Of a DNA stretch of 48,093 nucleotides, positions 10,931-48,015 are shown in pieces (positions within the stretch are counted from its first letter, which is position 1; each line of letters starts with the position of its first letter). The DNA is from Flavobacteriales bacterium UBA1494 (GTDB lineage Bacteria > Bacteroidota > Bacteroidia > Flavobacteriales_E > Vicingaceae). The stretch lies in the NCBI GenBank assembly GCA_905182175.1, contig CAJJAT010000031.1, positions 1 through 48,093 on the forward strand, written 5' to 3'. The translations under genes and the position numbers were made by a program. The notes beneath the pieces are model-generated. The model searched no databases and had not been told where the DNA came from. It worked only from the letters and a program-made list of their open reading frames with translations.

Positions 10931-10974
10931 TGTTATGCTGAGCGGAAAAGTTTACACTGAGCTTTGCCGAAGTG
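10931..10974. repeat. Dispersed repeat copy (TGCTGAGCGG...CACTGAGCTTTGCCGAAGTG)
   Basis: The segment contains TATGCTGAGCGG and then CACTGAGCTTTGCCGAAGTG, two halves of a repeat often seen between genes in Bacteroidota. Its first half matches the copy at 11071-11097. The rest of 10861-11070 holds no gene that I can see. Confidence 0.55.
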
Positions 10975-11070
10975 AAGTACTGCAACTTTTTTTCTTCAAT
11001 ATAAATCAGTAAAAACTTGAAATAATAAAATAAAAATTAATTGATAGAAATGCATAAAATATACAATCAC

Positions 11071-11097
11071 TTGTCATGCTGAGCGGAGTTGAAGCAT
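11071..11097 (+). repeat. Dispersed repeat copy overlapping the start of the symporter gene
   Basis: TTGTCATGCTGAGCGGAGTT and the following GAAGCAT form a near-consensus copy of the same dispersed repeat as at 10931. The ATG inside it (11076) is the only start codon before the first membrane helix of the downstream symporter, so the repeat encodes that protein's first seven residues (MLSGVEA). Confidence 0.65.
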
Positions 11098-12440
11098 ATC
11101 AATGGATCTTAGTTCTCCTTTTCGGAGTTCTTCTTTTTGTGTCTTCACCTTTGGCGAAAAACAAAGAGATATTTTTTCGCGCAGCATCTGCTAAAGGGAA
11201 AACACCCGGTTTTTGGTTGTTAACTTCAAGCCTAGTTATTTCTTGGATTTTTGCCAAATCAATCACCAACGCTGCCAACTTAGGGTTGAGTTTTGGAATG
11301 GTTGGAGGAGTTGCGTATGCAGCTTATTACCTCTCCTTTTTAGTAGCAGGATTTGTGATTTATTACATGCGTACGAAAGGTGGTTTCGAAAGTATTCATC
11401 AATTTTTAAGAAGCAAGTTTGGCAGTAACGCAATTCGCATTTTTTCAGCTCTAATTGCGTTCAGAATGTTCAATGAAGTATGGTCAAATACCATGGTAAT
11501 TGGCACCTATTTTGGTGAAAAAGGGGAAAGCATGTATTACATTGCGATTTTGGTTTTCACAGGAATAACCTTGGCATATGCATTAAAAGGAGGTCTGCGT
11601 AGTTCGTTGATTACCGATACGATTCAAATGGTACTTTTTGGAGTGCTATTGTTTGTTATTTTAGGAATGGTTTTACCCGAATCCGAGGCAACTGTTTCTG
11701 AATATGTGTCATCAGGAGAGTGGTCACTAGCCGGAGGAGTTGATTTATTAGTAGTGGCTTTACTCCAAGTTTTATCCTATCCCTTTCACGATCCGGTCAT
11801 GACTGATCGAGGGTTTATTGCAAGCCCAAAGCTGACTTTAAAGAGTTTCTTTTGGGCGAGTTTGATTGGAATAGTTTGTATTGTCTTATTTTCATGGATA
11901 GGGATTTATGCTCAATTTAAAGGGTTGGAAGGTCAGGCAACAGTGGAGGTTAGTAAATCCATGGGTGTGGGCATGATGTTATTAATGAACTTCATTATGA
12001 TTACTTCTGCGTCCTCTACGTTAGACTCAGCCTTTGCTTCCTTCTCAAAGTTAGTGGCTGTAGATTTAAATTTTGGTAAAACAGTAAGCATCAGTCTCTC
12101 AAAAGGTCGTTGGGCGATGGTAGCACTCACTATTTTAGGAACAGTTCCAATTTTCTTAGGACCTGAAATTTTATCCGCTACTACCATTTCAGGCACCATG
12201 GTCATTGGCTTAGCGCCAGTTTTTCTCTTTTGGAAAATGAAGGTTCCTAAGTCATCTTTTTTTCTCTCCGTTTTAGGAGGTATTACAATTGGACTTGCAT
12301 ATACTCTGGGGCTTTTCCCTGAAATAGTATCCATAGGAACAGGAAAATATGCTGCTTTGTTAGGAGCTAACTTATATGGAACACTTTTGTGTTTTGGATT
12401 GTATTTTTTGCCAACTTTATTCAACCATGTCAAAAGCTAA
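11076..12440 (+). CDS. Sodium:solute symporter family (SSS) transporter
   Basis: This 454-residue integral membrane protein has about 12-13 hydrophobic spans. Family features include WIFAKSITNAANLGLSFGMV in the second helix, the ALKGGLRSSLITDTIQMVL segment typical of SSS proteins, and SASSTLDSAFASFSKL near residue 310, where the sodium site of the family lies. It couples uptake of an unidentified solute to sodium. The start codon lies inside a dispersed repeat, and no other ATG, GTG or TTG precedes the first helix (WILVLLFGVLLFV), so the repeat-derived start is accepted. The 3' end overlaps the next gene by 14 bp, showing translational coupling. Confidence 0.88.
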   Translation: MLSGVEAYQWILVLLFGVLLFVSSPLAKNKEIFFRAASAKGKTPGFWLLTSSLVISWIFAKSITNAANLGLSFGMVGGVAYAAYYLSFLVAGFVIYYMRTKGGFESIHQFLRSKFGSNAIRIFSALIAFRMFNEVWSNTMVIGTYFGEKGESMYYIAILVFTGITLAYALKGGLRSSLITDTIQMVLFGVLLFVILGMVLPESEATVSEYVSSGEWSLAGGVDLLVVALLQVLSYPFHDPVMTDRGFIASPKLTLKSFFWASLIGIVCIVLFSWIGIYAQFKGLEGQATVEVSKSMGVGMMLLMNFIMITSASSTLDSAFASFSKLVAVDLNFGKTVSISLSKGRWAMVALTILGTVPIFLGPEILSATTISGTMVIGLAPVFLFWKMKVPKSSFFLSVLGGITIGLAYTLGLFPEIVSIGTGKYAALLGANLYGTLLCFGLYFLPTLFNHVKS

Positions 12441-13366: not shown

Positions 13367-14392
13367 ATGCCTCTCTTACAATTCACAGAAAAAGGAATAT
13401 ACTGCAAGCAAGCGAACGTTTACATCGACCCTTGGAAGCCGGTTGATTATGCTATCATTACGCATGCCCATGCAGATCATTCTCGTTGGGGTAATAAGTT
13501 TTACTTGAGCCATCACTTATCAAAGCCAATAATTCAGCATCGTTTGGGGCAAGACATTTCCATTGAAAGTATGGAGTACGGAGAAAGTCGAACGATAAAC
13601 GGAGTTCATTTTTCTTTTCATCCTGCAGGACATATAATTGGTTCGGCACAAGTTCGAGTAGAGTACAAAGGAGAAGTTTGGGTAGCCTCCGGTGATTACA
13701 AGTTAGAGAATGACGGCTTCTGCGCTCCTTTTGAGTCCGTAAAATGCAATGTGTTTATTACCGAATGTACCTTTGGCTTACCTGTTTTTAAATGGAAACC
13801 ACAAGAAGAAGTTTTTGCGGCCATTAATGCCTGGTGGCGGCAAAATAAAGCCGATGGAAAAGCGACTGTTTTAACGGGCTATTCGTTGGGAAAAGCACAA
13901 CGAATTCTGCAAGGAGTTGACCCTTCGATTGGTAAAATATACACTCACGGAGCCATCGAAAAAACGAATGAGGTAATTCGAAACATGGGAGTTAAGTTGA
14001 ATGATACGATTTACGTTACGCCTGAAATTCAGAAAAAAGAGTATGAGGGTAGTTTAATTATTGCACCACCGGCGGCCTTGGGAACCTCTTGGCAAAAAAA
14101 GTTTCCTGCATTTGAAGTAGGCATTGCTTCTGGTTGGATGAACATGCGAGGGCCACGCAGAAGGCAATCGGTTGACCGAGGCTTTGTACTTTCCGACCAT
14201 GCAGATTTTGAGAGCCTAAATATTGCAATAAATGCAACCGGTTGCGAAAAGGTGATTGTTACTCACGGCTACACCAATATTTTTAGCAAATGGCTGAACG
14301 AAAACGGAATAGATTCTCAAGTAGAGAGTACAGAATTTGAAGGTGAGTTAGCTGAAGTAGGTCAAGGAAAAGGAGAAAAAGAAAGTGAATAG
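13367..14392 (+). CDS. Ligase-associated DNA exonuclease (metallo-beta-lactamase/beta-CASP fold)
   Basis: This 341-residue nuclease carries the metallo-beta-lactamase motif HAHADH (33-38), a second His in HPAGHIIGSAQV, Asp in VASGDYK, and the beta-CASP-side elements LSDHADFESL and VTHGYTNIF. The ECTFGLP block is typical of the ligase-associated exonuclease family, which resembles mRNA 3'-processing factors and takes part in a bacterial DNA repair pathway with an ATP-dependent ligase. The ligase lies 1.6 kb downstream, separated by an exported protein gene. The usual Lhr-type helicase and PdeM partners are not in this window. Confidence 0.9.
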   Translation: MPLLQFTEKGIYCKQANVYIDPWKPVDYAIITHAHADHSRWGNKFYLSHHLSKPIIQHRLGQDISIESMEYGESRTINGVHFSFHPAGHIIGSAQVRVEYKGEVWVASGDYKLENDGFCAPFESVKCNVFITECTFGLPVFKWKPQEEVFAAINAWWRQNKADGKATVLTGYSLGKAQRILQGVDPSIGKIYTHGAIEKTNEVIRNMGVKLNDTIYVTPEIQKKEYEGSLIIAPPAALGTSWQKKFPAFEVGIASGWMNMRGPRRRQSVDRGFVLSDHADFESLNIAINATGCEKVIVTHGYTNIFSKWLNENGIDSQVESTEFEGELAEVGQGKGEKESE

Positions 14393-41455: not shown

Positions 41456-41699
41456 TTACCGGGGCTAATTCAAAATGTAAGCATGCTAAATTAATGCTAA
41501 GTGGTCTTATTTTGTCGCTCTTAATTAAACTTATTTGCAAAATGAGCGGTTAGCTATACTGTAGGTCACTCCAATTAGACTCACTGTGATTCGTTTTTGT
41601 ATAACGGAGAAATTTTGAAAAATATGAGGGGGTTTTTGACGGGAAACAGGGTAAAAACGTAAAAACCCTCATCAAAAATTGAAGGATTCTCTATTTTTT
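41456..41699. other. Intergenic DNA with a large hairpin; left edge of the accessory island
   Basis: No gene is seen. ATGAGGG then TTTTT (41624-41637, with a 2-nt bulge) pairs with AAAAACCCTCAT (41661-41672) around a loop of about 23 nt. The right arm also starts a degenerate terminator (41661-41699) of the kind that follows each tRNA-like relic further right. Confidence 0.45.
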
Positions 41700-41766
41700 G
41701 TGGGCCTTGATGGGCTCACTTCTTCTCGTTCCTAGCTCAGTATAAACTTCTCGCCCTCTATAGGGC
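41700..41766 (-). repeat. tRNA-like relic repeat, copy A
   Basis: On the minus strand it starts GCCCTATAG, contains the shared core GCGAGAAGTTTATACTGAGC, and ends TGAGCCCATCAAGGCCCAC. The 3' end matches the acceptor and T-arm side of the tRNA-Met fragment at 47396-47442, but the anticodon arm is absent. It is the shortest copy (67 bp). Confidence 0.6.
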
Positions 41767-41884
41767 AAAAAAAAGACCCAAGTAAAAATTTAGCATAAAT
41801 TGTAGCCTGTTAAATAGCAAGTAATGTATAATACCTCGACAAATTCGAACCACTAGTTAAGCTGAAAAAAGTATAACTTAGAAA

Positions 41885-42167
41885 ATGGAAATGTATAAAG
41901 AGAACTAGAAGAAAGTTAAGTAACTAATTCAAGGCAAAAGTTGCGATTGAAACTTTAAAAGCAGGAGAAACACTTGCGAAGCTTGCCCTTCGTTTTGAGG
42001 TACATTAAAATCAAATAAGTCAGTAAAAGCTAGAATTTTTTAAAAACGGTAACTCAGTATTTGAAGTCAAAACCTTAAAAACTGATTTAAATGAAGCAGA
42101 AACCGAGAAGCTTTATACCAAGATAGGGCGGTTAGAAATGGAGCTCGACTTTTTAAAAAAAGCTTAG
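41885..42167 (+). pseudogene. IS3 family OrfA remnant (helix-turn-helix subunit)
   Basis: The frame reads FKAKVAIETLKAGETLAKLALRFEVH after a stop at 41925, then a TAA (42006) and a TAA (42021) interrupt NQISQ and KLEFFKNGNSVF. The leucine-zipper end KLYTKIGRLEMELDFLKKA finishes at TAG 42165-42167. Just before the end is a run of seven A (42155-42161), the usual site of programmed -1 frameshifting into OrfB in this family; it is still intact. Confidence 0.8.
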
Positions 42168-43002
42168 CCAAATTGGGGTATACGACATAAAAAAGGATCT
42201 GATTAGCAAAGATTCAGGCATCTCAATAAATCGTCAACTCTGCTTGCTAAATATGTCGAAAGGCGGATTTTATTATGTTAGAAAAGTAGAGTCTGCGGAA
42301 AATTTAGAGATGATGCGTTTAATGAATCAGCAAATTACAGAAGACCCAACAGCGGAAGTATTAACTATACAGACGATGCTTGAAGAAAACAGATACAAAG
42401 CAGGACTTGAGAGAGTGCATCGGCTAATGCGTCTAGCGGATATTATTCCAATCTATCCCCGAAAGCAGCTAACAGTACTAGACGAAAAGAAGTACATACA
42501 TCCTTATCTGTTTAAAAACTTGCAGATCGAACGACCTAATTAAATCTAGGAAATAGACATCACTTATGTTACTATGAAGGATGGCTTTATCTATTTAACT
42601 GCTATAATAGATGTATTTAGCTGAAAAATTGTTTCATGGGGTTTGTCTAATTCGTTAGATGCAGAATCTAGCTTAAGAGTGGTTAGACATGGTATTGAAA
42701 CAACCGTGAAGCCTGAAATACTTAACTCTGACCAAGGTTCTCAATTTACTTGTTTAGAATACACTAATCTATTAAAAAGAGAAAAAATACAGATTTCTAT
42801 GGATGGTAAAGGAAGAGCATTAGACAATATTTATAGTGAGCGTTTTTGGCGTTCAATAAAGTATCGACATATATACTTGAACCCTGCTAAAGATTGATTA
42901 GAACTGTATAGAGGAATAGATAAATGGATTAACATGTATACTAATAGAAAACATCAAGGAACAGTTCAGAAACCAGAAAATAAATACCAAAATGCCGCTT
43001 AA
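42166..43002 (+). pseudogene. IS3 family OrfB remnant (DDE transposase)
   Basis: One continuous reading frame contains the whole catalytic protein, broken only by stop codons at 42541 (TAA), 42547 (TAG), 42622 (TGA) and 42895 (TGA). Text includes YKAGLERVHRLMRLADI, EIDITYVTMKDGFIYL (first D), LNSDQGSQFTC (second D) and ALDNIYSERFWRSIKYRHIY (E), so all three DDE residues survive. Most of the stops are explained by single base changes from expected Gln, Trp or Arg codons. No indel is visible, which suggests decay by point mutation. Confidence 0.85.
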
Positions 43003-43079
43003 AATTCAAATAAGAATCAACCAAAAATGGTCCGAATAATCAAAGTGTTATAGGTGAAGGGAGTAGGAGCATCTTTGGT

Positions 43080-43337
43080 GTAGAGACAGAGCTATACAAC
43101 ATCGGCTACTTTAAAAGTCATTGGAGTAAGTATAAGGCAAAATCTAAGTTACTGGAAGAGCATTAGGCATTTTACTCCTTCAGACATACAGAAGCTATTG
43201 ATATATTTAAATGGCCAGATTCTTTAACCAAGCTACAGAAGGATATGGGTCACTTTAGTTTGGACGTATCGTTAACCTACTTAAGAAGGTTTGAGGTAGC
43301 TGAATTACAAGGAGAGAATATGCCGATGATTAACTAG
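43080..43337 (+). pseudogene. C-terminal remnant of a tyrosine recombinase (integrase)
   Basis: The frame reads VETELYNIGYFKSHWSKYK, a TAG at 43164, then AFYSFRHTEAIDIFKWP, SLTKLQKDMGHFSLDVSL, TYLRRFEVAELQGENMPMI and a stop. This is box II of a phage-type integrase: R and H of RHT, H of GHF and the catalytic Tyr of TYLRR. The N-terminal two thirds are gone, presumably replaced by the IS element to the left. The tail EVAELQGENMPM matches a second fragment at 44506-44568. Confidence 0.85.
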
Positions 43338-43417
43338 AGGACTATATAGTTGACATTTTTTGTATGCAACGGTATATTTATGAGTGTTTAACGTACAATT
43401 ACTTCTCTTTTTTTAGC

Positions 43418-44461
43418 TTACCTAATGGGTTTATCAAAGTTATTTCGTTCGAAAGAGGGGTACATTATTGCTTTATTATTCCTTAAATCAAGAGAAGTTA
43501 ATTTATTATCGCGGCAAAACAGACGTGTTAGCAATATATTATTGTTTAAATCTAATCTTGTAAGCTTATTATTATCACAATCCAGATAATTTAGTAAAGT
43601 ATTTTGACTTACATCTAAGTTTTTAAGTTTATTATTACGACAATCCAGTTGAGTTAGTAAAGCATTTTGACTGATATTTAATTTTTTAAGTTCATTCTCG
43701 CCACAACCAAGATGAGTTAGTAAAGTATTTTGACTTATATCTAATTTTTTAAGTTGATTATTATCACAAACCAAATAAGTTAAAGAATTATGTTCTCTAA
43801 CATTTAAGCTTTCCATACTGTTATATTGACACCGCAATGAAGTTAAAGCAGTATTTTGGTTTAGGTCTAATTTTTTCAGATTATTACCTGAACAGTCTAA
43901 ATTAGTTAATAATGTACTTTGGCTTAGGTCTAAATTTAGAAGATTGTTTCCATCACAATACAAGTCAGTTAGTAAAGTGTTTTGACTGACATCTAATTTC
44001 TTAAGTCCGCTTCCACTACAAGATAAAACTTCTAAAGCAGTATTTTTACTCAAATTTAAAGTCTCTACCAAACCGTTGTAATGATTATCAAAGCGTAGTT
44101 CTTTTAACGCTATATTTTTACTTAAATCTAAAACAGCAAGTACACTTCCCATATCGTGGTCACCAATTATTTCTAGATGAGTTAAAGAAGTAAAACCCTC
44201 AATTCCTGTTAAATCTTTGATTCCAATTATGTGCCACGAATTATCTGCATCAGACCGAATAGCTTCTCCCATCTCTTCAGTTGCTACATACAATTCCAAA
44301 GAAGTTACATCTTTAATATTTTTTGTAGTTATCCTACCATCAATTTTATTATCGTAGCCTTGACTTATTAATTCTTTTTCAAAGAGTTGGTCTGGAATTG
44401 AAGTGTATTGACTAAAGCCAATAATTGGGATAAATAGTAAAAGGAGTAATAATTTATTCAT
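43418..44461 (-). CDS. Exported leucine-rich-repeat protein
   Basis: This 347-residue protein has a signal peptide (MNKLLLLLLFIPIIGFSQ), then about 100 residues leading into a run of roughly ten 21-residue LRR units with the pattern LTxLxCxxNxLxxLDxSxN, for example LTNLDCSGNNLKKLDLNQN and LTHLGCGENELKKLNISQN. The units are repeated also at the DNA level (63-bp period). No T9SS sorting domain or membrane anchor is present at the C-terminus, which ends SFERNNFDKPIR. A surface or extracellular binding protein is likely. It stands between two integrase tails and is the first gene of the accessory island that is still intact. Confidence 0.88.
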   Translation of the reverse strand: MNKLLLLLLFIPIIGFSQYTSIPDQLFEKELISQGYDNKIDGRITTKNIKDVTSLELYVATEEMGEAIRSDADNSWHIIGIKDLTGIEGFTSLTHLEIIGDHDMGSVLAVLDLSKNIALKELRFDNHYNGLVETLNLSKNTALEVLSCSGSGLKKLDVSQNTLLTDLYCDGNNLLNLDLSQSTLLTNLDCSGNNLKKLDLNQNTALTSLRCQYNSMESLNVREHNSLTYLVCDNNQLKKLDISQNTLLTHLGCGENELKKLNISQNALLTQLDCRNNKLKNLDVSQNTLLNYLDCDNNKLTRLDLNNNILLTRLFCRDNKLTSLDLRNNKAIMYPSFERNNFDKPIR

Positions 44462-44505
44462 ATGCTAAATTCAATATTTAAATAATGCAACTGAAACCAT
44501 TAAAT

Positions 44506-44568
44506 TACTTAAGTGGGCTTGAGGTCGCTGAATTACAGGAAAAGGATATTCCGATGATTAGTCTATAA
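44506..44568 (+). pseudogene. Second tyrosine-recombinase C-terminal fragment
   Basis: This 20-codon fragment reads YLSGLEVAELQEKDIPMISL then stop. It matches the end of the relic at 43080-43337 (YLRRFEVAELQGENMPMI) and begins exactly at the catalytic tyrosine. It lies in the 170-bp space between two minus-strand genes. Confidence 0.75.
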
Positions 44569-44574
44569 AAACAA

Positions 44575-44600
44575 AAAAGTCCCACCGAAGCAGGACTTTT
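44575..44600 (-). terminator. Hairpin terminator of the lipocalin-like lipoprotein gene
   Basis: AAAAGTCC (44575-44582) pairs with GGACTTTT (44593-44600) around a 10-nt loop. On the minus strand it is followed by T-rich sequence. A diverged copy follows the next gene (45389-45417). Confidence 0.75.
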
Positions 44601-44629
44601 AATTAAACGATTTAAAATAGTAAGGTAAT

Positions 44630-45112
44630 TTATTGTGCTGTTAAGGTCTGAACAAATTCAATGGTATCGCCCATATCAATATAACTAAGGCCTACAGCTA
44701 ATAAAGTGCCATCATTTGTTATAATATTTAAAGTGTCCCCATCTGGGCCTTTGTCAAAGATTAACTTTGTCTCTGAATCATAAAATTCCCAAGTTCCATA
44801 AAGTATTTGAGGTTCGGTAGTGTCGCACTTGATTGCTCCTGAATCATCCGTGTAAATACCGCTTGTCTCACACCTTAATATATCGTCCAAAGCACAAGCA
44901 TCAAAACTATTAGTATCGAGACCTGTTGATATAGTATCTCCATTTAAAATGGTAGTAACATCAGTAAGAATGAAATTCTTCGCACACAACTTTTCAGTAT
45001 TTGTTGGAGTCGCTGGGCGAATCATTGGACCTGTATCATCATCATCCTTACAAGAAGAAAAAGATAAAATACTAAAAAATAGAATAATTAGAATTGGTTT
45101 TTTATTTTTCAT
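44630..45112 (-). CDS. Lipoprotein with lipocalin-like domain
   Basis: This 160-residue protein has a lipobox, ILSFSSCKDDDD, at the end of the signal MKNKKPILIILFFSILSFSSC, followed by an acidic linker typical of Bacteroidota surface lipoproteins. The folded part CAKNFILTDVTTILNG to YGTWEFYDSETKLIFDKG, and TIEFVQTLTAQ at the end, has the alternating strand pattern of the short lipocalin-like domains. A ligand is unknown. ATG 45112 is preferred to TTG 45127 because it is the normal start of such a signal. A hairpin terminator lies 30 bp after the stop. Confidence 0.75.
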   Translation of the reverse strand: MKNKKPILIILFFSILSFSSCKDDDDTGPMIRPATPTNTEKLCAKNFILTDVTTILNGDTISTGLDTNSFDACALDDILRCETSGIYTDDSGAIKCDTTEPQILYGTWEFYDSETKLIFDKGPDGDTLNIITNDGTLLAVGLSYIDMGDTIEFVQTLTAQ

Positions 45113-45388
45113 CAGATTTTTTCTCAAATAAAAGAATAAAAAAGGAATTAAACAAATTAGAAATATAAATAGCTTTTTTTTTAAAAATCGAAATAAATGA
45201 CCTCCTTCTAGAAGTCATCCATTTATTTTCATAATTGGAATTAGATAGGCCCCTTTAATTGTCAAGAAGTATTTTTTACAGGTGGCAACGTTTAACGAGA
45301 AGGATAGAAAAAAGCAGCGATGTATAGCAAGGTTATAACGCAAAAACAAGAGGAGTGCGATAATACAGTAATTGAGGTTTTGGGGTAA

Positions 45389-45417
45389 CAAAAAAGTCCT
45401 AACGAAGTAGGAATCTT
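45389..45417 (-). terminator. Hairpin terminator of the BspA-like gene
   Basis: TCCTA and TAGGA (45397-45401 and 45408-45412) form the core of a stem flanked by an A/T-rich extension. Its sequence is recognisably related to the terminator at 44575-44600. Confidence 0.55.
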
Positions 45418-45438
45418 AATTCTGGATTTAAATAAGCC

Positions 45439-46473
45439 TTATGGATTACAATTCGTAAAGGTTGGTTTTGGGAGTGTCCAAGCTGTTGTATTATCACTAA
45501 AGCTTCTGCAATCAGTTACATTAATGACATTCCAAGAGCTAAGATTTTGATTAAAATTTGTTGAGTTTGAAAACATCCTCCACATATCGGTCACATTAGC
45601 TACATTCCACCCGCTAATATCCTGATTAAAATTTGTTGCTCCTGTAAACATAAAACCCATATTAGTCGCATTAGCCACATTCCAGGAGCTAATATCTTGA
45701 TTAAAATTTGTTGCTCCTGAAAACATAAAACCCATATTAGTCGCATTAGCCACATCCCACAAACTTATATCTTGATTAAAATTTGTTGCATTTTCAAACA
45801 TACTATTCATATCAGTTACATTAGATACATCCCATGAACCAATGTCTTGGTTAAAGGAAGATGCATTGGCGAACATTCCATAAGCGCTGCTAAGATTAGT
45901 AACATTCCAAGAACTTATATCTTGGTTAAAGTTAATGGCTAAGAAGAACATTCCTGAAGCGTCAACTACATTTGACAAATTCCAGGAGCTAATGTCTTGG
46001 TTGAATAACGAGGCAGTATAGAACATTAGTCCCATTCTGCGAACTTTGGAAACGTTCCAAGAACCGATGTCTTGATTGAAGGACGAGGCATTGCGAAACA
46101 TATAGTCCATATTAGTGACATTGGACACATCCCACGAGCCTATATCTTGATTAAAACCTATCGCAGAGTCTAGCATAGAGGTCATATTAGTTATTTTAGT
46201 TACACAAATATTGGTAACATCTTGGTTGCTAACAATTCTATTTTTAAGTTGAGTAGCGTTAACTACAGTGTATAAAAGACCATTTACAGTTCCTGTATCT
46301 CCTATTATGGAAGTTGCGCTTGCCTTTATCGTCACTCCATTGGCATCAAGATAGATTAATTCATTATTTGTTGGAGTTGTCGGTGTTGTTGGTTCAGTAG
46401 TATCGTCATCCTTTTCACAAGAGAATAGGGAAATTGATATAAGTGCTATCAGAGAATATTTTAATGGTTTCAT
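45439..46473 (-). CDS. BspA-family (DUF285) repeat surface lipoprotein
   Basis: This 344-residue protein has a lipoprotein signal ([19 protein letters not shown], then [16 protein letters not shown]) and nine consecutive 25-residue DUF285 units, [16 protein letters not shown] followed by xxMFxxAxx. The pattern is kept in every unit, with two neighbouring units almost identical ([10 protein letters not shown] and [10 protein letters not shown]). DUF285/BspA proteins act in adhesion and surface binding in other bacteria; the target is unknown here. It ends TNCNP without a T9SS domain, so anchoring is by the lipid. The start at 46473 is preferred to a longer form whose first 12 residues do not look like a signal. 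It may be laterally acquired, as it lies in the island. Confidence 0.9.
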
Positions 46474-47027
46474 AGTTTTTTGTTTTATTTTTTTAAGCAA
46501 ATAAAGCAATATTTTTAATAACCTAAAACCTTAGCTAGAATCTCACCAAAAGCTGAAACCATTCGGCCGTATTAATAGAATCAACCTGGGGTGGGTTTAA
46601 CAGAAATGGTTTTCTATTTCAAAGGGTGTTGTATAGCAATAGTATAACCCTACTTTTGGGTATATTCAGTTAACTTTTTTTTTAATTATCTTATAACTTA
46701 ATGCTGACTTATATAAGTACTGTTGAAATTCAATAAAGGCATCGGCAATGATTGAAAGTGAGGATTTGTTTAGAGGGGTAGAAAAAGAAGAGGTTGTTAA
46801 ACGACTGTCTGAAATCACATCCCTTAAGGGGGAAAAGAAGGGTGTTGTTGATTTAACGTATTGATAGTATATGTTATAATTCGGATTATGGTAGAAATAT
46901 TAACTGTCTAAAAACGGTCTGTAGTAGGTTAAAATGGCAAAAATTAGTGCTTTTATGGTAGTATAACTCGTTATTACTATTGTGAAAAATTACTCTTAAA
47001 AGCGAAGTTTTGGGTAAAGCATTAAAG
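46474..47027. other. Intergenic DNA with no convincing gene
   Basis: A frame of 38 codons at 46748-46864 (+ strand, MIESEDLFRGVEKEEVVKRL and onward to DLTY) is amphipathic, but it has no recognisable family and no clear ribosome-binding site. The rest is AT-rich with a partial inverted repeat around 46625-46650 (GGGTGTTG...AACCC). Confidence 0.35.
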
Positions 47028-47056
47028 AAAACTGTTGTTTGAAAAACAACAGTTTT
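47028..47056. terminator. Orphan 13-bp hairpin
   Basis: AAAACTGTTGTTT (47028-47040) and AAACAACAGTTTT (47044-47056) are perfect complements with a 3-nt loop. No intact gene ends here on either strand, so the gene it served has been lost. Confidence 0.7.
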
Positions 47057-47087
47057 ATCCCGTCAGTACAAGGCTTGAAAAGACTTG

Positions 47088-47103
47088 TGAGACATCTGTC
47101 TCA
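47088..47103. repeat. Short perfect inverted repeat TGAGACA-TC-TGTCTCA
   Basis: A 7-bp stem with a 2-nt centre lies between the orphan hairpin and the next terminator. It may be a protein-binding site or chance. Confidence 0.4.
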
Positions 47104-47107
47104 TAAT

Positions 47108-47144
47108 AAAAAAAGGACTCAATGAAATCATTGAATCCTTTTTT
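47108..47144 (-). terminator. Hairpin terminator paired with tRNA-like relic B
   Basis: A-rich sequence and GGACTCAATGA pair, with one mismatch, with TCATTGAATCC and T-rich sequence. It lies on the 3' side of relic B on the minus strand. Confidence 0.75.
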
Positions 47145-47149
47145 GCTAG

Positions 47150-47232
47150 GTGGGCCCTGATGGGCTTACTTCGTCTATCATTGCGCTATCGCTTAATGAA
47201 GCTCAGTATAAACTTCTCGCTCGCTATAGGGC
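47150..47232 (-). repeat. tRNA-like relic repeat, copy B
   Basis: This 83-nt unit starts GCCCTATAGC on the minus strand, has the shared core GCGAGAAGTTTATACTGAGC, and ends AGCCCATCAGGGCCCAC. The two ends can pair (GCCCT with AGGGC), as in an acceptor stem. No anticodon arm equivalent to tRNA-Met is present, and the T-loop consensus is lost. Confidence 0.65.
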
Positions 47233-47265
47233 AAAAAAAGACCTAATCTTTCGATTGAGTCTTTC
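47233..47265 (-). terminator. Hairpin terminator paired with tRNA-like relic C
   Basis: AAAGAC and AATC pair with GATT and GTCTTT around TTTCG-type loop sequence. It lies between relics B and C. Confidence 0.6.
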
Positions 47266-47266
47266 T

Positions 47267-47338
47267 GTGGCCCTTGATGGGCTCACTTCGTCTATTATTT
47301 CGTTTCACTCATAATGCTCAGTATAAACTTCTCGCCCC
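47267..47338 (-). repeat. tRNA-like relic repeat, copy C
   Basis: On the minus strand the copy contains the core GCGAGAAGTTTATACTGAGC and ends GTGAGCCCATCAAGGGCCAC. Its 5' end has lost the GCCCTATAG start seen in copies A and B. Confidence 0.6.
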
Positions 47339-47353
47339 TCAGCAACTAAGAAA

Positions 47354-47386
47354 CAAAAAATCCCTCACTAAAAAGTGAAGGATTTT
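47354..47386 (-). terminator. Hairpin terminator behind the tRNA-Met 3' fragment
   Basis: AAAATCC and TCAC pair with GTGA and GGATTTT around a short A-rich loop. It occupies the position of the original transcription terminator of the tRNA gene. Confidence 0.65.
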
Positions 47387-47395
47387 ATATTTCTA

Positions 47396-47442
47396 GTGGG
47401 CCCTGATGGGCTCGAACCATCGACCACCTGATTATGAGTCAG
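47396..47442 (-). tRNA. 3' half of a tRNA-Met(CAT) gene: attachment-site scar
   Basis: The minus strand reads CTGA-CTCATAA-TCAG (anticodon stem and loop with CAT), then GTGGTC, then GATGG-TTCGAGC-CCATC (T arm with perfect 5-bp stem), then AGGGCCC for the 3' acceptor strand. Everything 5' of the anticodon stem is missing: above 47442 the sequence is unrelated. A tRNA cut at the anticodon arm is the classic footprint of tyrosine-recombinase integration. An intact tRNA-Met should lie at the other end of the element, to the right of this window. Confidence 0.85.
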
Positions 47443-47554
47443 TAATTAATAGGTTTCATTAAGTATCATTTTATTGCAAATATTTGATTTACAAGTTAAA
47501 CACAGAATTTGTGTTTTCATCTATTAATAGTAATTGTCATTAATTGTTTTAAAA

Positions 47555-47576
47555 AGTCTGACCAAAGTCTGACCAA
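47555..47576. repeat. Tandem 11-bp direct repeat (AGTCTGACCAA x2)
   Basis: AGTCTGACCAA occurs twice with no gap (47555-47565 and 47566-47576), about 110 bp inside the proposed element end and just after the stop of the RadC-like gene. Short direct repeats at such places can be recombinase or excisionase arm sites. Confidence 0.7.
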
Positions 47577-47580
47577 GGAA

Positions 47581-48015
47581 TTATAGTAGACCATTATCTG
47601 CAAAACTAAAGTAGCTAGTTCTAGTAATTATTAAATGATCTAATATTTTTAATTCTAGAAGCTCACCTGCTTGTTTAATTCTATTAGTTAATTGTTTATC
47701 ACTATTACTTGGTTTAAGTACTCCGCTAGGATGATTATGTGCGATAACAATACAAGTAGAATTGCATTTTAAAGCTACAGAAAAAAGAATTTTAGTGTCT
47801 ACTATAGTAGATGATCTGCCACCTTTAGACAGAGGGTATATTCCGATTAATTGGTTTGAATTATTAAGCATTACTAGAAAGAATTCTTCAAGTATTTCAA
47901 TTTGATTAAGATTCCAATTTTGAATCAAAACTTTGTATGCTGATTTGCTATCGGTGATTGCAGTTGAATCTTTAATCCCTTTTTTATAAGATATTTCAAT
48001 TTCAGTTACTTTCAT
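47581..48015 (-). CDS. RadC-like JAB/MPN-domain protein of mobile-element type
   Basis: This 144-residue protein consists of the JAB (JAMM) domain only. The metal motif is HNHPSGVLKPSNSD (H93, H95, D106), with the usual Glu in ILEEFFLVML (43-44) and KGGRSSTIVD between. Full RadC has an additional N-terminal helix-hairpin-helix domain of about 100 residues that is absent here. Such short JAB proteins are common cargo of integrative elements in Bacteroidota, and their function is not established despite the RadC name. The gene lies directly inside the proposed element end at 47443. Confidence 0.88.
   Translation of the reverse strand: MKVTEIEISYKKGIKDSTAITDSKSAYKVLIQNWNLNQIEILEEFFLVMLNNSNQLIGIYPLSKGGRSSTIVDTKILFSVALKCNSTCIVIAHNHPSGVLKPSNSDKQLTNRIKQAGELLELKILDHLIITRTSYFSFADNGLL

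Follow-up and report, generated by a model that had tools for sequence, protein, structure and literature searches.

Repeat units behind a partial tRNA-Met gene

The stretch of DNA analysed here (the window) is the entire contig C31 of Flavobacteriales bacterium UBA1494 (CAJJAT010000031.1, 48,093 nucleotides (nt)), whose genome assembly comprises 45 contigs and 3.33 Mb. Near one end it carries three short repeats, copies A, B and C, which look like an undescribed kind of tiny mobile element at tRNA gene ends across the Bacteroidota. They lie on the minus strand, where a preliminary description of the window had placed them, and the 20-nt core GCGAGAAGTTTATACTGAGC is exact in all three. No further exact copy of the core occurs in the genome; one with a single mismatch stands behind tRNA-Lys on contig C1. 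Core and loop are followed by GACGAAGT in B and C and by GAAGAAGT in A, and then by AGCCCATCARGGSCCAC, which is the final 17 nt (nt 58-74) of tRNA-Met.

In the direction of the minus strand the tRNA 3' half comes first, then terminator beta, hairpin C with its tail, terminator alpha, hairpin B with its tail, and terminator gamma. There follow about 5.3 kb of genes with the remnant of an IS3-like insertion sequence (IS), and after them the right half of alpha, hairpin A with its tail and a beta-like terminator (Table 1). The half-alpha in front of A is recognised from positions 41655-41781, which match the alpha-hairpin-tail-beta stretch of a congener (genome G004) at 86.6%. The preliminary description had paired each copy with a hairpin terminator, and a different one does follow each; terminators also precede the copies (for A, part of one), so that the natural unit is terminator, hairpin and tail.

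All copies end, as had been claimed, in the 17-nt 3' strand of T-stem and acceptor, but the neighbouring tRNA-Met from which this end was said to come is only the 3' half of a gene. The intact tRNA-Met gene lies on another contig (C11:337483-337557). At the half gene another island probably joins (47396-48015, with radC beside it), its rest falling between contigs C31 and C11. The 5' piece described for all copies, GCCCTATAG, is present in A and B and missing from C. It had been taken for a tRNA 5' end (GGGCCCTTAGCTCAG), but the best reading is that of a tail in reverse complement (GCCCTGATGGGC), because its equivalent in G024, a genome of another genus, is exactly GCCCTGATGGGC and because at locus L022 the locus's own tRNA-Gln tail recurs as an exact reverse complement of 13 nt. 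The idea of a tRNA whose middle has been replaced is thus not supported, since the only part of the tRNA present is nt 58-74.

Table 1. Features of the repeat region, listed in minus-strand order
Feature	Position in window	Strand	Remarks
tRNA-Met 3' half	47396-47442	-	anticodon stem to C74; beside radC gene
Terminator beta	47339-47395	-	separates tRNA 3' half from C; shared with congeners G004 and G005
Copy C, hairpin element	47284-47338	-	core 47316-47335; inner stem ATTAT/ATAAT in loop
Copy C, tail	47267-47283	-	tRNA-Met nt 58-74, 2 mismatches
Terminator alpha	47233-47266	-	between C tail and B; same one in congener G004 and in another genus (G024)
Copy B, hairpin element	47167-47232	-	core 47201-47220; inner stem TCATT/AATGA in loop
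Copy B, tail	47150-47166	-	tRNA-Met nt 58-74, exact
Terminator gamma	47108-47149	-	sequence directly after tRNA-Met in congeners G001 and G002 (empty site)
Gene-bearing stretch	41782-47107		between units B and A; not at this place in congener G004
DUF285 protein	45439-46509		in gene-bearing stretch
Open reading frame (ORF)	44630-45127		in gene-bearing stretch
LRR protein	43418-44461		in gene-bearing stretch
IS3-like remnant	41840-43010	+	in gene-bearing stretch; decayed IS3-type transposase, HTH_21 and rve pieces, in-frame stops
Right half of terminator alpha	41767-41781	-	precedes A; left half lost towards IS3-like remnant
Copy A, hairpin element	41717-41766	-	foot GCCCTATAGAGGGC; exact core 41735-41754; short loop
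Copy A, tail	41700-41716	-	tRNA-Met nt 58-74, AGCCCATCAAGGCCCAC, 1 mismatch to gene
Beta-like terminator	41655-41699	-	follows A

The repeat family in other Bacteroidota

In a scan of one genome per species (about 85,000 species) the exact core was found in 15 other species, all of them Bacteroidota. An intact tRNA gene lies just upstream on the same strand in 12 of these, a tRNA fragment in two, and neither in one. With a looser search, 14 of 395 genomes of the class had it, and here too most copies followed tRNA genes. The reversed control pattern had no match in 100 genomes, which excludes chance. Nearly every intact case consists of the hairpin GAGAAGTTTATNCTGAGC-loop-TCGAAGN' followed by a copy of nt 58-74 of the local tRNA, and six isotypes are represented (Gln, Trp, Lys, Met, Asn and Gly). 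As had been suggested, the repeats thus form a family in their own right, with a core that recurs in other genomes and with shared internal sequence.

In the UBA1494 genome, which has about 29 tRNA genes, the hairpin stands at tRNA-Met, tRNA-Lys and tRNA-Asn only. At tRNA-Lys the tail of the copy is lost at the point where a fragment of an IS of the window's kind follows, and a relative of the window's IS3-type element adjoins the tRNA-Lys hairpin (L004:1540-1850). The tRNA-Asn gene (C15:39969-40540, locus L090) is followed by a diverged hairpin and, about 470 bp further on, by a second, T-arm-like tRNA-Asn remnant. Elsewhere units are repeated in tandem with lengths of 72 bp (L041), 100 bp (L050) and 112 bp (L024). 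The array behind tRNA-Met at L030 (2978-5480) has in one interval a gene for a transposase associated with repetitive extragenic palindromes (REP-associated tyrosine transposase, RAYT), in the next a sigma-factor-like and a membrane-protein-like gene, and at its end a broken tRNA-Met copy.

The tail is a copy of nt 58-74 of the local tRNA

The 14 nt that follow the hairpin match the local tRNA at 12.6 of 14 positions. With shuffled partners the value is 6.8 +/- 0.5 (at most 8.7 in 2000 shuffles), and with other isotypes it is 5.6. When 24 loci were aligned on A58, the identity between gene and copy was 0 at positions -4 to -2, 0.46 at -1, 0.79-1.00 at 0 to +16 and 0.54 at +17 (0.39 without the tandem loci). 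These sharp edges at the T-loop and at C74 define the copied block as nt 58-74. The linkers on the two sides are mostly unrelated; in only 9 of 30 cases are they more similar to each other than to those of every other locus. Genes that carry a unit stay intact tRNAs, and the identity block reaches the tRNA 3' end, as in the attachment (att) sites of integrases.

Copying from mature tRNA by reverse transcription was considered as a source of the tails. The copies stop at C74, without the C75-A76 of mature tRNA, and at L048 the gene encodes CCA and its copy does not. That the copies have gained no CCA even there argues against an RNA template, and a DNA origin of the tail copies is more likely.

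Empty and filled sites and a unit shared between genera

In the congeners G001 and G002 tRNA-Met is directly followed by the gamma sequence, that is, the site is empty. In UBA1494 gamma, about 90% identical to that of G001/G002 over 120-150 nt, comes after the tail of copy B, and 246 bp with two units (beta-C-tail and alpha-B-tail) lie between tRNA-Met and gamma. A second pair was found in another genus, in which the tRNA-Met site of G015 is empty and that of G024 holds the alpha terminator, a hairpin and a tail copy, followed by a recognisable form of the native terminator of G015. At tRNA-Trp/secE it is UBA1494 that has the empty site; in G010 and G017 there is an insert of linker, hairpin and tail, with the native secE leader coming after the second tail. 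A duplication of the target is seen in all three comparisons, with one target copy in the empty sites and two in the filled ones, at tRNA-Met (G001/G002 versus UBA1494, G015 versus G024) as well as at tRNA-Trp (UBA1494 versus G010/G017).

In G004 the genes that flank C11 in UBA1494 are separated directly by a two-unit array from the HAD gene found in the window. This implies that the interval has grown by several kb in UBA1494, where A now stands to one side of it and B and C to the other. The order of units is alpha-beta in G004 and beta-alpha in UBA1494, and G005 has beta with the loop of C. The alpha terminator is letter-for-letter identical in G004 and in G024, which belongs to a different genus. 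The foot of the alpha unit in G024, the GCCCTGATGGGC mentioned above, is the reverse complement of the tail of the UBA1494 genus, and both tails surrounding it are of G024's own type. Judged from these comparisons, the arrangement is best explained by transfer of the terminator-foot-hairpin segment between genera, the tails being supplied by the recipient. Among known phages and plasmids none was found to carry the G004 array, and terminator alpha was not found in viral contigs.

The hairpin and its dispersed relatives

The inner motif of the hairpin is a dispersed palindrome, CTGAGCGNAGTCGAAG, with 13 exact copies in UBA1494 and about 65 in two other genomes; the reversed control had none. 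With 13-65 copies in several genomes it behaves as REP-type sequences do, which are intergenic palindromes present in many copies. The outer stems of the dispersed form are locus-specific and often complementary. The tRNA-linked subtype adds GAGAAGTTTAT and is found mostly at tRNAs. Within it, position N pairs as A-T in 24 of 44 cases and as C-G in 16, and the foot pairs with the start of the local tail more than in shuffles (3.45 versus 2.76 +/- 0.16, p = 0.0006, with relatedness between loci uncontrolled), the signal coming mainly from pairs 4, 5 and 7. A strong RNA or DNA structure was rejected on the basis of folding scores: DNA of the copies folds marginally better than shuffled sequence (z -1.6 to -2.0). 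Since predicted folding is weak, the hairpin structure is inferred mainly from comparison.

A further dispersed-hairpin pair (CTGAGC...CGAAG) lies in the window at 10938-11094 (+), around the start of ORF 11076-12440, with no tRNA near. At L184 (C11:313517 of the same genome) a dispersed hairpin sits inside the loop of a terminator-like palindrome, which suggests insertion into hairpin loops in general.

Discussion

With the anatomy of the units, the exact nt 58-74 block, its match to the local tRNA in six isotypes, the empty and filled sites and the unit shared with another genus established, we think it probable (roughly 0.6) that A, B and C represent a miniature, non-autonomous DNA element of Bacteroidota that inserts site-specifically, a proposal drawn from sequence comparison. 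Such an element would consist of a terminator and an imperfect hairpin and would insert at the 3' end of a tRNA gene, where the tail of the target tRNA (nt 58-74) would come to stand on both flanks, either shared or duplicated on insertion. The tRNA gene would in this way stay whole and keep a terminator. Repeated insertion together with recombination between units might give rise to tandem arrays, which could then be shuffled, split by larger insertions (here between B and A) and moved between genera. A putative trans-acting recombinase would cut or exchange strands in the T-loop between nt 57 and 58, and the hairpin may be the binding site of this recombinase. The preliminary description had considered, among other things, a tRNA-associated mobile repeat or relics of attachment sites; both guesses agree with the empty and filled sites, with the presence of the same unit across genera and with the placement at tRNA 3' ends. 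As a whole, what it had observed is partly confirmed and how it had interpreted this is partly supported.

Several points weigh against the miniature element. Only the right end of the insert, the hairpin, is conserved; the left one varies with the isotype, and this is unexpected of a transposon. The predicted folding is weak, some of the tandem units are simple duplications, and many of the loci come from metagenome assemblies. Moreover, no recombinase could be linked to the units: RAYT transposases and tyrosine integrases were examined, and neither is systematically associated with them. A tyrosine integrase adjoins only two of the examined loci, that of a provirus at tRNA-Asn (L120) and that of an island at tRNA-Gln (L034), as is expected of tRNA hot spots; the short units contain no integrase gene. 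The Y1_Tnp domain is absent from UBA1494 and is no commoner in carrier genomes (21 of 32) than in genomes sampled from the class (89 of 119). No integron integrase was seen, although no systematic search for IntI was made. The L120 provirus (IMGVR_UViG_2778261482_000001) is 13.7 kb long and has identical terminal repeats of tRNA-Asn 3' end plus terminator (about 1-83 and 13661-13743), with a hairpin-tail unit just inside one end, adjoining its tyrosine integrase.

Scars of larger elements rank second as an explanation and are in our view unlikely. Full-size integrative elements with a T-loop-specific integrase would have entered repeatedly, each leaving an attR composed of its hairpin end and the tRNA tail, and their interiors would later have been lost, as in cis-mobilizable elements. 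Crossover in the T-loop is known for both tyrosine and serine integrases (Ms6, PMC1762012; Dehalococcoides ssrA islands, PMC3146451), the provirus and the island just mentioned abut arrays, and gene-bearing stretches lie between units in UBA1494 and at L030. However, most loci have no integrase nearby, and to place the same hairpin at six isotypes a single element end would have to persist while att specificity changed again and again. In the window the joined island has a different boundary, in the anticodon stem, and the tails in G024 are both of the recipient's type.

The Dehalococcoides ssrA islands are the closest published architecture, with insertion in the T-loop and tandem 20-bp direct repeats, each immediately preceded by a conserved 15-bp motif (PMC3146451). 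They share with the present units the T-loop of a tRNA-like gene as target, tandem 3'-end repeats of about 20 bp with a short motif before each, and the lack of an own integrase in some units, but they are of kilobase size, carry cargo, use a serine recombinase and occupy one gene, that of transfer-messenger RNA (tmRNA) (PMC3146451). The units described here measure about 70-130 bp, carry no genes, are found at tRNAs of six or more isotypes and differ in their motif. In mycobacteriophage Ms6 the phage integrase makes its crossover in the T-loop, and its tyrosine-integrase site resembles the present one in this respect (the crossover here being inferred), in an identity block that extends to the tRNA 3' end and in the restored gene (PMC1762012). 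The attP of Ms6, however, matches one tRNA-Ala, and a single T-loop change alters its targeting (PMC1762012), whereas in the present units a single hairpin is combined with tails from many isotypes, and there is no integrase.

It is improbable that the hairpin is a REP moved by an IS200-like Y1 (HUH) transposase. The RAYT gene between two hairpin-tail units of L030 made this engine attractive, as did the dispersal of CTGAGCGNAGTCGAAG, and small, imperfect, dispersed hairpins that often lie near terminators are indeed a feature of REP elements (PMC3733652). The L030 RAYT, however, has its own AGAGATGCC hairpin, its relatives are flanked by REPs of other sequence, some of them GTAG-type, and no unit was near any other RAYT locus that was checked. 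A RAYT is also disfavoured by the background frequency of Y1_Tnp. Unlike REP elements with their RAYTs (PMC3733652), the units show no GTAG/CGTC tag and no linked RAYT, and are placed exactly at tRNA tails with a 17-nt block.

Slightly less credible still is an origin without mobility, in which palindrome-prone slippage or unequal recombination would have tandemly duplicated the tRNA 3' end together with its terminator. Whole-unit tandem copies with near-identical linkers (L024, L026, L028, L041 and L050) speak for such a process, but it leaves unexplained why the junction at nt 57/58 is identical in six isotypes, why the block ends sharply at C74 next to unrelated linkers and why two genera have the alpha unit in common, and as the sole process it is opposed by the inter-genus transfer and the empty sites. 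A transcribed structured RNA kept by selection (for example a tRNA minihelix mimic or a processing or decoy element), in line with the RNA with tRNA-like ends once suggested, is very improbable, for despite the foot-tail pairing, the switching inner pair and tail copies that are better preserved than linkers, the units usually lie downstream of intrinsic terminators, fold weakly, match no Rfam family and are patchily present even between congeners.

Integron gene cassettes form arrays of directional units that end in a folded site with a variable loop and are stacked behind a fixed primary site. By analogy, the units of the miniature element are also directional, have a folded end site with a variable loop and are stacked behind a fixed primary site; unlike cassettes they mostly carry no genes, and their primary site is the tRNA T-loop. 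A wider, tentative and on balance doubtful proposal would be an undescribed integration system of Bacteroidota, in which a recombinase recognises the near-universal tRNA T-loop and inserts gene-less cassettes of terminator and hairpin, the cells accumulating and exchanging interchangeable tRNA-gene 3' ends in integron-like arrays. No description of the units was found in the open-access literature, where the core and hairpin strings were unmatched and topic searches returned nothing, which is not proof of absence.

The pairs of empty and filled sites make the model of a miniature element directly testable. If it is true, a whole phylum carries at its tRNA genes a mobile element of very small size, about 50-110 bp plus a 17-bp tail, which could use many tRNA targets because it keys on the common T-loop and takes the flanking tail from its target. 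This would account for one class of partial tRNA repeats that follow tRNA genes, would provide a route by which tRNA genes swap terminators, and would point to a recombinase acting at a site that is present in every genome.

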